A stretch of DNA of 64,000 nucleotides from Anoxybacteroides tepidamans (GTDB lineage: Bacteria > Bacillota > Bacilli > Bacillales > Anoxybacillaceae), in the NCBI RefSeq assembly GCF_014201465.1, contig NZ_JACHEP010000017.1, positions 1-64,000 of the forward strand, given 5' to 3'. The position numbers and the translations under genes are program-made. Positions 29,828 through 33,616 of this stretch are shown here, piece after piece (within the stretch, counting starts at the first letter, position 1; the number at the start of each line of letters is the position of its first letter). The notes beneath the pieces were generated by a model. The model had not been told where the DNA came from, searched no databases, and saw only the letters and a program-made list of their open reading frames with translations.

Positions 29828-31015
29828 TTATAGCGATTTTCTTTTCATCCTCTCAAGCAACCGGCGATCTTCTGTTAGCGCTTCGTCGATTGTATTAGGA
29901 AACGTCCAATTTTTAATGCGTTGAACCGCTTTCCGGTTTACCCATCGAACATAGCCTAGCTGTTCTAGCCATTGTACATACTCATAGACCGCTCTCGTAT
30001 AATGGTATGCTTGAGCGAGCGGAAGATGCCGCACCGTTATTTTTTGTTCCGCGATCTTCTCTTTCATCCATGCGTAAAGCGAAGAAAGTGAATACGTTTC
30101 ATCGTTTGCTAAAAACAATAATATATACGTTTGCCAAATAAATGCAGGGGTTTCAAATAAATAGCTATGATCAAGCGGCCAGCCCGCTTCACAAGGAAAT
30201 AAAGCCGGAGGGTGATGAGGATAAAAATCGAAACAGATGGCGCGATTCGTCAGAGTTGGGTACATCGTAAACGTTAAACGCCATTTTTTCTTTTGCGCTA
30301 GCCATTCGTTCCAAAACGGTGAAGGCAGCGGTACTGCAGGGTAAGTGAGAAAATCGGCAAAGCGAACACGGTCTAGTTTTTCGATCACCGGAACGGAAAA
30401 TGTATAATACGGAGAAAACGGAATGAGATGCACAAGACGAATGAGTCGTTTTGTTTGCGGACAATAATAAAAAATGAGCGGCTGCGGAGAAACAGAAGAA
30501 ACGTGCTGAGCAAACAACCATTGAAAACGCGGGAGTTTAAAGCGATACGCTGAAAGCCGCTGCAGATGATGCGCTCCCAATATCCAAACCGGACGTATTC
30601 CTGCTTTTTTATATTGGTCGTTGCGCTTGCGAAACAGCGCTTCGCCCATTGTGGAACATTGATATTCAAACGCATATAATCGATCTTGATCCATTACAGA
30701 GAGATCCGGTCGCTGCTGAACGTGATGAAAATACGGTTCAAGCCGGACGTTCATCGATTGTTTTTTTAGCCAATGAAAAAGATCGGTTTTTCCCGCGACA
30801 TGATACGGTGATTCGGCCTCATGTTCAAAGGGGCACATACCTTCCCTTTTATGGGCAAAATGAGGCATTCTTCGGTTACCGAGCTTTAAAATGACTTCGT
30901 TTTGGCAAGCGGGGCAAAAAAACGATTCTCTCTTTCTTAATTCCATCATCTGTTCCCTTGTCCAGCTGCCGATGAGCGAAACCGATTGTCCATTTTTTAA
31001 TAAAGCAACAAGCAA
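29828..31015 (-). CDS. coiA: Competence protein CoiA
   Basis: 395 aa. N-terminal zinc-finger-like segment (FFCPACQNEVILKLGNRRMPHFAH) followed by a restriction-endonuclease-like core (SPYHVAGKTDLFHWL, RPDLSV, YAFEYQCS). CoiA processes incoming single-stranded DNA in transformation. I choose TTG 31015 (MLVALLKNGQ) because the family starts so and AAAGGAAGTGG precedes it; ATG 31065 with AGAAGGA is an alternative. No convincing ComK box seen. Confidence 0.85.
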   Translation of the reverse strand: MLVALLKNGQSVSLIGSWTREQMMELRKRESFFCPACQNEVILKLGNRRMPHFAHKREGMCPFEHEAESPYHVAGKTDLFHWLKKQSMNVRLEPYFHHVQQRPDLSVMDQDRLYAFEYQCSTMGEALFRKRNDQYKKAGIRPVWILGAHHLQRLSAYRFKLPRFQWLFAQHVSSVSPQPLIFYYCPQTKRLIRLVHLIPFSPYYTFSVPVIEKLDRVRFADFLTYPAVPLPSPFWNEWLAQKKKWRLTFTMYPTLTNRAICFDFYPHHPPALFPCEAGWPLDHSYLFETPAFIWQTYILLFLANDETYSLSSLYAWMKEKIAEQKITVRHLPLAQAYHYTRAVYEYVQWLEQLGYVRWVNRKAVQRIKNWTFPNTIDEALTEDRRLLERMKRKSL

Positions 31016-31136
31016 AAGACCACTTCCTTTCGTTATGATTGATAAATAACATTCGCGTTCACTCATTCGAATTCCTTCTATATAGAGGTAATTTGGAATT
31101 TTAACGTTTTCATCTTTTATTGAAGTAATCGGTATG

Positions 31137-31269
31137 TTTCGACTGTCGGGTGACCGAACAACACCGTTTCCAGACAAATGCATTTGTCGGTGAAGCGGTT
31201 AGTTGTTCGGTCCTCTGTCACGCGAAGGCGTGACAAAGCAAGTCACAGACTTGCCTCCGACAGTCGAAA
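31137..31269. repeat. 133-bp multi-hairpin (cloverleaf-like) inverted-repeat element
   Basis: Outer arms TTTCGACTGTCGG (31137-31149) and CCGACAGTCGAAA (31257-31269) are perfect 13-bp inverted repeats. Inside are ACCGAACAAC/GTTGTTCGGT (31153-31162, 31202-31211, extended by ACCG/CGGT), capped by the palindrome GACAAATGCATTTGTC (31173-31188); then TGTCACGC/GCGTGACA (31216-31235) and GCAAGTC/GACTTGC (31238-31254). Almost every base is paired. It lies between the cls terminator and coiA, outside both genes. Could be a REP/MITE-like DNA element or a structured RNA; no second copy in this window. Confidence 0.8.
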
Positions 31270-31325
31270 AAATAGGAAGTCTGCTTTTTCGTTAGCCATA
31301 AGTTAAACCTTCCAGTTGTATTTAT

Positions 31326-31363
31326 ATAAAAAACAAAACGCCCGAGTCATTTCATTCGGACGT
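31326..31363 (-). terminator. Terminator of cls
   Basis: ACGTCCGA/TCGGGCGT stem (one G-U) followed on the minus strand by TTTTGTTTTTT. Confidence 0.75.
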
Positions 31364-31365
31364 CT

Positions 31366-32877
31366 TTACAAAAGAGGCGATAACAACCGACAGATCGACT
31401 CGACGACGCGAATCGGAAGTGGCCGCTTTTTAAAGATATCATAGTCAATATAGGTTGAGTCTTGCAAGTCTTGAAGAAAATCAGCAACGAGCGTTTTTGT
31501 ACTTTCAGTATGATATAAAAAGGCATTCACTTCAAAATTCAAATGAAAGCTGCGCATATCCATGTTTGCCGTACCAATCGAAGCAAGCTCTCCGTCAACA
31601 ATAATCATTTTGCTATGCAAAAACCCTTTATTATATTCATAAATTTTCACTCCCGCTTCTAACAGTTCTGGAAAATACGAGCGGGACGCGTAAAAAACGA
31701 TCTTCTTATCAGGCCGCTTCGGTGCCAAAATGCGCACATCAATCCCACTTAATGCTGCTACTTTTAATGCTGTGAAAATATCTTCATCCGGTATAAAATA
31801 TGGAGAAGCGATCCAAATCGACTGTTTTGCTGATGTAATCATCGCAAAAAACAAATGTTTAATCACTTCCCACTCTTGATCCGGTCCCCCCGCAATGAGC
31901 TGTACGCCCCCTTTTTCGCTGTTGGAAATAAGCGCTGGCGATAAATAATTTAGGGTTAACAACGTTTCTCCGGTCATGTAATACCAATCTTGCAAAAAGA
32001 TGAGCTGCAGCGTACGCACCGCTTCCCCGCGAATCCATAAATGCGTATCGCGCCAAAAACCAAAATATTCGTTTTTCCCTAAATACTCATCTCCAATATT
32101 GAGTCCGCCGACAAAGCCAACCGTTCCATCAATGACAATGATTTTGCGATGATTGCGGAAATTGATTTTATTATTTAAAAACGGCAGGCGGACAGGAGAA
32201 AATGGCACCATTTCCACTCCAGCATCACGAAGTTCTTGAATGTACGTTTTTGAAAGCTTCCAACTTCCAACAGCATCATAAAGAAAGCGAACGTGCACCC
32301 CTTTTTTCGCTTTATCAATTAAAATATCTTTCAACTGCTGCCCTACCCCGTCATGCCGAACGATGTAATATTCTAAATGAATATGATGCATCGCTTTTTG
32401 CAATTCCGCAAAAATCGCTGAAAACGTTTCATCTCCGTTCGTCAGCACTTTCGTTTCCGTCGCTAACGAAACTGGGCTTTTGCCAAGGCGATGCGCTAAG
32501 CGAAGAAGCGGCTTTTGATGCTCCTTTAGATCGCTCATCTGCTGAATATTAAACTCTCGCTGCCCTTCAAATTTTAAAAACATTTGTTCATCCAACATTG
32601 CTTTCTTTTTGAATAGGCGCTGCTTCCTGTAATTTCTTCCAAACATAATATAAAAGAAGAAACCAACTAGCGGGAAGCTGCCTAACACAACAAGCCATGT
32701 TAGCGTTTGGGCTGGCCTCCGGTTTTCTAAAGAAATGACGAAAGCAATAAAAATAACCGAACACGTGATCAAAAGGCTGAGAAAACCAAGAAGCCAACCT
32801 TCCCAATAATCTTTTGTAAAAATCAAAAAAATGCTAAGCAAAAAAACGAAGATAAGGACTTGCAACGTATTTCGCAA
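31366..32877 (-). CDS. cls: Cardiolipin synthase
   Basis: 503 aa. Two N-terminal membrane helices (residues about 5-60), then two phospholipase-D HKD motifs: NHRKIIVIDGTVGFVGGLNIGDEY and LHSKMIIVDGELASIGTANMDMRS. Condenses two phosphatidylglycerols to cardiolipin. Length and helices fit ClsA. It separates coiA from mecA, which are neighbours in B. subtilis. Confidence 0.94.
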   Translation of the reverse strand: MRNTLQVLIFVFLLSIFLIFTKDYWEGWLLGFLSLLITCSVIFIAFVISLENRRPAQTLTWLVVLGSFPLVGFFFYIMFGRNYRKQRLFKKKAMLDEQMFLKFEGQREFNIQQMSDLKEHQKPLLRLAHRLGKSPVSLATETKVLTNGDETFSAIFAELQKAMHHIHLEYYIVRHDGVGQQLKDILIDKAKKGVHVRFLYDAVGSWKLSKTYIQELRDAGVEMVPFSPVRLPFLNNKINFRNHRKIIVIDGTVGFVGGLNIGDEYLGKNEYFGFWRDTHLWIRGEAVRTLQLIFLQDWYYMTGETLLTLNYLSPALISNSEKGGVQLIAGGPDQEWEVIKHLFFAMITSAKQSIWIASPYFIPDEDIFTALKVAALSGIDVRILAPKRPDKKIVFYASRSYFPELLEAGVKIYEYNKGFLHSKMIIVDGELASIGTANMDMRSFHLNFEVNAFLYHTESTKTLVADFLQDLQDSTYIDYDIFKKRPLPIRVVESICRLLSPLL

Positions 32878-32910
32878 TGACTTTCACCCTAATCATTATT
32901 ATCGTAAAAA

Positions 32911-32940
32911 AACCGATTTCAACAGTTGAAATCGGCTTTT
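32911..32940 (-). terminator. Terminator of mecA
   Basis: GCCGATTTCAAC/GTTGAAATCGG stem followed on the minus strand by T7. Confidence 0.85.
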
Positions 32941-33616
32941 ACTTTAACGGAAAATGTTTAGCCAGCGTCGCTAATGCATTCTCATGAATAATTTCTTTTC
33001 CATATTCCTCTAATCGATAAATCGTTACTTGTGAATCATATCCATATTCTAACAATAAACTGAGCCAATTCTCAATTTCTTGCTCCGTATAATGTTCGTC
33101 AAACTCAATAAACAAATAATAGCGTCCCTCGAATTGAAATAAACTGTTTTTTACGTACGAAAAATCAACACGATGGGCTAAAGAAATCAAGTCTTCGATA
33201 TCCTTAAAGGAGATGATAAAACGAAGGACTTCTTCATCCTCTTCATCCACCATCAAATCGCTGTCCCGCTCAATTTGAAAATGTTGATCGAGCAGCTCTT
33301 CAATTCTTTCATCAACCGGGAATTCACGCAGCTTTTCCTCTGGAAGCGGAAGTTCTAATTTGCTTCCATCTTTAGACAATTGTGCCTTTGTGACTAACAC
33401 TTCTAGCCCTTTATCAAGCGCCTGCACTTGAATCCAAAGCGGACCTTCAAGCGAAAAATCGCCTTCGTTATGAACTTCATCCATCATTTCCCAAAACAAT
33501 TCTTCGCTTCGCTCGCGGTTATACCAAATTTCTTCACGGTCAAACCCGCGTTCTTCTATATCAACATACGAAATATAAAACTTTACCGTATGCTCATTAA
33601 TGCGTTCCATTTCCAT
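32939..33616 (-). CDS. mecA: ClpC adaptor MecA
   Basis: 225 aa. N-terminal target-binding domain (MERINEHTVKFYISYVDIEERGFDREEIWYNRERSEELFWEM), acidic linker, C-terminal ClpC-binding domain (FSYVKNSLFQFEGRYYLFIEFDE). Controls ComK and Spo0A by delivering or sequestering with ClpCP. GGGAGAG upstream of the first ATG. Length like B. subtilis MecA (218). Confidence 0.95.
   Translation of the reverse strand: MEMERINEHTVKFYISYVDIEERGFDREEIWYNRERSEELFWEMMDEVHNEGDFSLEGPLWIQVQALDKGLEVLVTKAQLSKDGSKLELPLPEEKLREFPVDERIEELLDQHFQIERDSDLMVDEEDEEVLRFIISFKDIEDLISLAHRVDFSYVKNSLFQFEGRYYLFIEFDEHYTEQEIENWLSLLLEYGYDSQVTIYRLEEYGKEIIHENALATLAKHFPLK

Follow-up and report, generated by a model that had tools for sequence, protein, structure and literature searches.

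The cloverleaf-like sequence at positions 31137-31269 of the window (the whole stretch of 64,000 nucleotides of Anoxybacteroides tepidamans DNA analysed here) is, with a probability of about 0.88, the structured core of a MITE, a non-autonomous DNA transposon of 246 bp, moved by an IS630-family transposase, reshaped through its hairpins and belonging to a module that changes its ends. According to this reading, the element would have been moved in trans by the transposase, as suggested by its copies, ends and empty sites, and would have entered the 5' region of coiA at a TA, which was thereby duplicated. The hairpins of the core would form in DNA, where template switching during replication would invert the loops and re-match the arms, as the loops and arms found in the copies suggest, and this process may help to keep the fold perfect. 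The core would also be a module that changed its transposon ends; the differing ends and the similarity of the cores were observed directly, and from them we infer the route.

The repeat and its insertion sites

The MFE fold of the 133-base core is a four-way cloverleaf of -79 kcal/mol, in which 54 pairs engage 108 of the 133 bases, and 200 dinucleotide shuffles gave a mean of -37.5 with an sd of 3.79 (z = -10.95). The opposite strand has a nearly equal fold (-75.6 kcal/mol). These results bear out the four-way layout with nearly all bases paired that an earlier note on this DNA had described, together with the perfect 13-bp terminal inverted repeats, which are the two strands of stem P1 (31137-31149, TTTCGACTGTCGG, and 31257-31269, CCGACAGTCGAAA), and the 16-bp palindrome, which reads GACAAATGCATTTGTC and caps the long hairpin P2 (31152-31212, kept in alignments A1 and A3 described below). 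The other two hairpins are P3 (31216-31235, GTCACGC-GAAG-GCGTGAC) and P4 (31238-31254, CAAGTC-ACA-GACTTG), all these parts being given on the plus strand. The absence of a nameable RNA family was also confirmed: the whole window gave two Rfam matches at gathering score, both outside the element, and the sole overlapping match in 30000-33000 with E up to 10 scored 18.8 bits, where the gathering score is 79, so that a known Rfam RNA was rejected. The two matches elsewhere in the window were a T-box leader (RF00230, 41744-41976, plus strand, 149 bits) and the small RNA RsaE/RoxS (RF01820, 27474-27592, minus strand, 87 bits).

The same note had taken the 133 bp as the element. Although these bases are indeed the structured core, the repeated unit is 246 bp (31081-31326, plus strand) plus a TA duplication. 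The whole MITE (type a, with IS630-type ends) was delimited by the consensus, an empty site and an alignment of 30 oriented copies, in which the identity extends leftwards as far as TATATAAATGCAATTTGG and rightwards as far as CCCAGTTGTATTTATATA and no further (L025 and L028 are missing one end). By the alignment and consensus, the left outer arm (31081-31136, plus strand) begins with TATAGAGGTAATTTGGAATTTTAA, a divergent version of the consensus TATAAATGCAATTTGGAACTTTAA, and the right outer arm (31270-31326, plus strand) finishes with ACCTTCCAGTTGTATTTATA. The consensus terminal inverted repeats, TATATAAATGCAATTTGGA and TATATAAATACAACTGGGA, are present and imperfect, with matches at 15 of the first 24 positions in the window copy. 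The element carries no transposase, and it is short and multicopy as an IS630-related MITE is.

In its own genome (G000; 54 contigs, 3.39 Mb), the search for copies gave 82 candidate places, of which 40 were scored; among the 84 matches listed were at least 40 full-length places (the window copy with 100% and 39 others with 90-96% identity). The terminal 19-mer pattern with up to two mismatches occurred 119 times, versus 2 times for the reversed control. Among 30 loci examined, 22 copies were cleanly bounded and 21 of these were intergenic by a simple ORF test; the neighbours of the other copies are genes other than coiA. A gene-free mobile repeat of 246 bp, with the 133-base cloverleaf at its centre, is thereby scattered through the genome.

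The filled window locus reads CCTTC-TA-[246 bp]-TA-AAAAACAAAACG, with the left and right TA target-site duplications at 31079-31080 and 31327-31328, and the cls-coiA locus of a genome from the same genus (G001) is empty with a single TA (CCTTC-TA-AAAAA; it reads CCTTCTAAAAAAATAAAACGCC). The element is absent from the aligned coiA-cls regions of G001, G002, G003, G005 and G006, and inspection by eye found no such element in those of G004 and G011. A second locus (L011) is filled in G000 and empty in G002, G005 and G006 (GC-TA-AAATGAC), as well as in G003 and G004 (GC-TG-AAATGA). Empty sites and flanking duplications, which the earlier note had suggested looking for, were thus found as a TA duplication at the window and L011 loci. 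These results, together with the many copies and the IS630-type ends described below, substantiate its proposal of a small MITE-like mobile element. At the L010 locus, G001 is empty, yet has CA at the place of insertion, and the alignments at L012 and L024 were gapped or too diverged. At the L011 site, G001 (L287) also reads GCTAAAATGAC in the stretch displayed, and it has a different insertion slightly downstream of the TA at which the MITE lies in G000.

From its likely ATG, coiA occupies 29828-31066 on the minus strand (CoiA_nuc, PF06054, 3e-49), and the phospholipase-D-like ORF upstream of it (31366-32877, minus strand) matches PF13091 (1e-46) as expected of cls. The mechanical start of the coiA ORF at 31183 falls within the MITE core and adds an in-frame N-terminal extension of 39 amino acids; judging from the sequence, translation more likely begins at the ATG at 31066, which is preceded by GAAGG. 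We take this GAAGG to be the ribosome-binding site. The element lies directly upstream of it, so that any coiA transcript started further upstream must traverse the element. The position upstream of coiA given in the earlier note therefore stands; its cls terminator was not confirmed by a consensus scan of 30900-31500, which found no terminator. The scan found neither an intrinsic terminator nor a promoter in the element.

To identify a candidate partner, MITE ends were compared with IS630 ends, all cut from loci, using 500 shuffles. DDE_3 (PF13358) matches were present in all 41 family genomes (above the cut-off in 40), and 39 of the 41 had relatives of one OrfA at E<=1e-20. For each of six MITE ends (from G000, G006 and G002), the best of 20 IS630 ends belonged to the two-ORF subfamily A, whose ends are, for example, TATATACATGCAACATGAAGAGTTAACTTCTCA and TATATACATGCTCATTGAAAAGTTAACCTTCG. 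The scores against subfamily A were 10 to 16 (shuffle P = 0.002 to 0.010), the weakest match being the right end of the G000 copies (score 10, P = 0.01). Some ends of subfamily B were also above chance (best P = 0.002), and those of subfamilies C and D gave P = 0.05 or more. Both ORFs are IS630 by NCBIfam (OrfB with 153 bits; OrfA with 96.6, slightly short of the cut-off of 100). Since both ends resemble those of an IS630 subfamily common in the family, the element is most likely an IS630-type MITE, and by terminal similarity it appears to share its ends with an IS630-family element, a feature of IS630-related MITEs. In G000 itself, no IS630 with matching ends was found among the OrfA relatives at E<=1e-20, which number only two (the first has different ends and the second contains internal stops), suggesting that movement there may be past or that the partner was unseen.

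Related cores under other ends

By blastn, the repeat matched 33 of 61 genomes, namely 33 of 37 within the family and none of 24 from other families of the order; with at least 39 further copies in G000, these are other copies of the kind that the earlier note had proposed to look for by BLASTN. Named plasmids with the repeat were one of Geobacillus kaustophilus and two of Anoxybacillus amylolyticus, and one pattern was found in contigs of Anoxybacillus voinovskiensis, A. pushchinoensis, two other Anoxybacillus and Geobacillus thermocatenulatus. Carriage by phages was rejected, because phage records gave no blastn match and viral contigs no match to one degenerate pattern.

A covariance model built from 124 cores (R1) matched at least 13 of 249 genomes of the order, of which 8 are in the family and 5 are from three other families (G170; G127, G206 and G231; G150). 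A second model (R2) matched at least 5 of 398 genomes in a sample of the class, all in the family, and at least 2 of 398 in a sample of the phylum, which were G000 and one weak match. Misses by both models are expected, since 13 or 8 candidates per genome were scored under strict filters. The G150 core (L327) gave z = 3.8 to 4.9 in shuffles keeping the fold and was placed in no MITE type. A weak model match outside the class (L368 1501-1605, G1021) has three hairpins, including a TGTCACGC..GCGTGACA stem, and immediately follows a sequence that by eye resembles a tRNA 3' end; it was left out of the related cores (z = 2.5 to 4.1 in the fold-keeping shuffles).

Two further MITE types contain related cores under unrelated ends, and for this reason the core looks like an end-switching module. 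Type b has the ends GGCTGTTTTCGTAAACTTTGTTGCT...AGAAAAGAGCC and occurs in G170, G231, G127 and G206. Its scan gave 20 loci, some with the same element, and both ends were recognised in six; 8-bp direct repeats flank five of the six, perfectly in three cases and with one mismatch in two, while the bounds of the sixth are too wide to tell a duplication. Type c has the ends CACGAGTGTTGATTATCCA...TGGTTAATCAACACGCCTG and occurs in G003 and G014, with copies in G021 and G006. The 18 loci of its scan represent 11 distinct recognised elements, of which seven have direct repeats of 9 bp (perfect in six, with a single mismatch in the seventh) and four have no duplication (three from G014 and one from G003). 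The type c ends match both ends of an IS4-family element (L381 in G021; CAGGTGTGTTGATTAACCAATAAT and CACGGCTGTTGATTATCCAAA) whose transposase matches NCBIfam IS4_1 (E = 9e-67), as in an IS4-related MITE. The flanks of L381 itself show no clear duplication, and a shortened relative is present in G003 (L391). For type b, we presumed an ISL3 partner from the 8-bp duplication and the GGCT ends, and rejected it because the PF01610 loci of G170, G231 and G206 lack such ends; G127 had no PF01610 match, ISL3 being the sole family tried.

Some individual loci combine or vary these types. In L076 (G006), a type c MITE interrupts a type a MITE at its left end and is flanked by the 9-bp duplication TAAATGCAC. 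The left flank of a type c element in L352 (G003) contains a mini-hairpin, GTTTTCGACTGTCAAGGC..GACAGTCGAAAAC, like the type a P1 without the other stems, and in the type b core of L323 223-369 (G206) the P3-P4 stretch is apparently partly duplicated.

The similarity of the cores was assessed against shuffles preserving the fold and the pair make-up. The comparisons gave z = 5.3 to 12.1 for types a and b, 3.8 to 8.4 for a and c, and 4.3 to 7.3 for b and c. Specifically, L031 (type a) gave z = 11.2, 11.0, 5.8, 8.7 and 5.3 when compared with five cores of type b, and 8.4, 6.0 and 6.4 when compared with three of type c. For L316 (type b), z was 10.5, 12.1 and 8.9 with three cores of type a and 7.1, 5.7 and 6.5 with those of type c, and for L328 (type c) it was 8.1, 7.3 and only 3.8 with cores of type a and between 4.3 and 7.3 with those of type b. 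In the cores printed, all three types have the P2 cap CAAAT..ATTTG and the P4 motif GCAAGC..GCTTGC or near it. The four type c elements without duplications and the one weak comparison between types c and a (z = 3.8) slightly lower the support for the main reading.

MITEs are normally viewed as the ends of an insertion sequence enclosing filler. In this case it is the filler that is conserved, under ends that differ, which raises the testable question of how a passive transposon benefits from an internal cloverleaf. Tentatively, and at somewhat under even odds, the cloverleaf could be a selfish, portable module that is defined by its fold and that at least three end types (IS630 with TA, IS4 with 9 bp and the 8-bp type) have captured in several families of Bacillales, giving these MITEs an advantage that depends on DNA hairpins. 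It is also possible, if rather doubtful, that the cloverleaf actively aids the transposon, its DNA hairpins or cruciform raising transposition or replication-coupled copying, and is for this reason common to MITEs with unrelated ends. The presence of one fold in MITEs with TA, 8-bp and 9-bp duplications and the signs of hairpins forming in DNA (see below) are consistent with such an active part. However, a cloverleaf-free copy, a 99-bp outer element, occupies one site common to G021 and G032 (L061 and L062), although it may be the product of a deletion after insertion, and we know of no IS630 or IS4 mechanism that requires an internal cruciform.

Loop inversion and paired changes

The hairpin loops occur in both orientations. 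Among 124 oriented cores, the P4 loop was ACA in 61 and TGT in 30, TTT in 9 and AAA in 7, ATA in 5 and TAT in 3, and another sequence in 9. The complementary P3 loops in these cores were CTTG (25) and CAAG (22), TAAG (14) and CTTA (3), TTTG (3) and CAAA (2), and TAAA (2) and TTTA (2), in addition to loops without an inverted partner (GAAG 34, GAAC 5 and others). None of the six one- or two-step intermediates between ACA and TGT was present in the 124 cores; the TTT and AAA pair is weaker evidence, since TAT and ATA are also intermediates between them. Arms were made alike in single copies: where most copies have the 3' arm CCGACAG, L076, L270 and the second L064 copy have CCGTCAG and L269 has TTCGTCAG, and these changed arms match the TGACGG or TGACGA opposite. 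L269 and L076 also have inverted P4 loops, by comparison with the other copies in G000 and with most copies in G006, respectively.

The earlier note had suggested a target for a rearranging enzyme, and loops have indeed been inverted and arms made alike, but the ordinary counterpart of such changes is template switching by a polymerase. In yeast, template switching between the arms of inverted repeats is described as homogenising the arms and inverting the spacers (PMC8604942). The loop inversions would then be a natural record of template switching at bacterial DNA hairpins.

Paired changes were counted in two alignments. From 153 core rows, 7 odd rows (other-strand, truncated or spurious) were taken out, resulting in 126 distinct cores, and removal by hand of L009 and one L274 match left 124 type a cores, which were aligned by sequence only (A1). 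In A1, 91.8% of cells pair and 19 pairs have changed on both sides; the cells with both-side changes numbered 185, versus 77 in shuffles and 14 to 123 when the structure was slid. Further pair types were not above the shuffles (60 versus 58.9; 189 of 500 were as high). The other alignment (A3) contains 41 cores across the types fitted to the model, with 93.0% of cells pairing, both-side changes at 50 of 58 pairs, and 336 cells with both-side changes, compared with 84 for the shuffles and between 47 and 95 for slid structures. Note that the A3 counts lean towards the structure, because the alignment was fitted to it. The covariance-model search proposed in the earlier note gave R1 matches beyond the family, and the two alignments gave both-side changes above the shuffles.

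Such changes could suggest that the cloverleaf is a functional structured RNA within the MITE, a regulatory leader or a processing signal whose fold is kept by selection on the transcript, which we consider unlikely. The covariation is strong in both A1 and A3, and the G000 stems are less variable than the arms (39 of 112 versus 80 of 116 sites polymorphic, Fisher P = 3.7e-7; loops, 14 of 22). In the literature, bcr repeats are found in transcripts of two B. cereus strains (84 of 165 and 62 of 155; PMC3446304) and transcripts with Correia elements are cut by RNase III (PMC10969869). However, selection on one RNA strand should favour G-U over A-C among one-sided changes, and the two are about equal: 13 versus 15 distinct stem changes in G000 (39 copies, being 43 rows less 4 odd ones, as for the polymorphic sites), and across the types 35 versus 63 cells without three junction pairs or 72 versus 63 with them, indicating no clear selection on one RNA strand. 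Moreover, the inverted loops point to DNA, and the orthologous coiA regions examined are without the element. Given the inverted loops, and the arms that have come to match each other in some copies, the paired changes alone are no proof of an RNA function, a warning that applies to paired changes in mobile palindromes in general. The low variation of the stems may owe something to each of three factors, namely template switching, selection and base composition. We favour, with modest confidence, a role of the cloverleaf in DNA over a role in RNA.

That the cores of the three types are unrelated, with convergent palindromes in which the paired changes are only homogenisation by template switching, is quite improbable. 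The arms made alike in L269, L076, L270 and the second L064 copy, and the known effects of template switching on arms and spacers (PMC8604942) would agree with this; the similarity between types exceeds the fold-keeping shuffles in all three comparisons (a with b, a with c and b with c), and the P2 cap and P4 motifs are shared by all three types in the cores printed. Finally, a conserved leader or regulatory site specific to coiA, which the earlier note had offered as one option and which the position directly upstream of the coiA ribosome-binding site might suggest, is extremely improbable and was rejected, since the coiA-cls regions of G001, G002, G003, G005 and G006 are without the element and copies elsewhere adjoin other genes.

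Comparison with known systems

A search of open-licence papers found no literature on this element or on a cloverleaf core under unrelated ends, although such literature may exist elsewhere. The IS630-family elements of Geobacillus and Anoxybacillus (subfamily A) have similar terminal sequences and the same TA flanks, but carry a transposase in about 1.19 kb, whereas the MITE carries none. In blastn searches of plasmids, types a and b matched none from genera other than Geobacillus and Anoxybacillus, in a set which presumably includes the B. cereus group.

REP elements are palindromes of 20-40 bp tagged with GTAG or CGTC (PMC3733652) and linked to RAYT (PMC2817692); the size and the TA duplication of the present element speak against REP/RAYT membership. 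The bcr1-bcr3 repeats of the Bacillus cereus group are, like the present element, short interspersed repeats of Bacillales, and are called MITE-like in structure and function in PMC3446304. The mobility of bcr is, however, tied to a TTTAT motif (PMC6542083), whereas the duplications here are TA, 8 bp or 9 bp, with TA at both readable type a loci. The bcr-like affinity suggested in the earlier note was therefore not upheld and bcr membership was rejected, the two being set apart by description.

The kind of mobile element is already known from RUP and Correia (PMC2229807, PMC10969869). Correia/NEMIS elements of Neisseria likewise have TA at their termini and terminal repeats, and their stem-loop transcripts are stable (PMC2229807, PMC10969869); they are about 107 and 155 bp (PMC2229807), and the passages cited do not mention a cloverleaf. 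RUP of pneumococcus, a MITE related to IS630-Spn1, is similar to the present element in its IS630-like ends, TA target, many intergenic copies and a partner insertion sequence inferred from common ends (PMC2229807). According to the description in the same source, RUP is 107 bp, whereas the element described here is 246 bp with a nested four-way cloverleaf.
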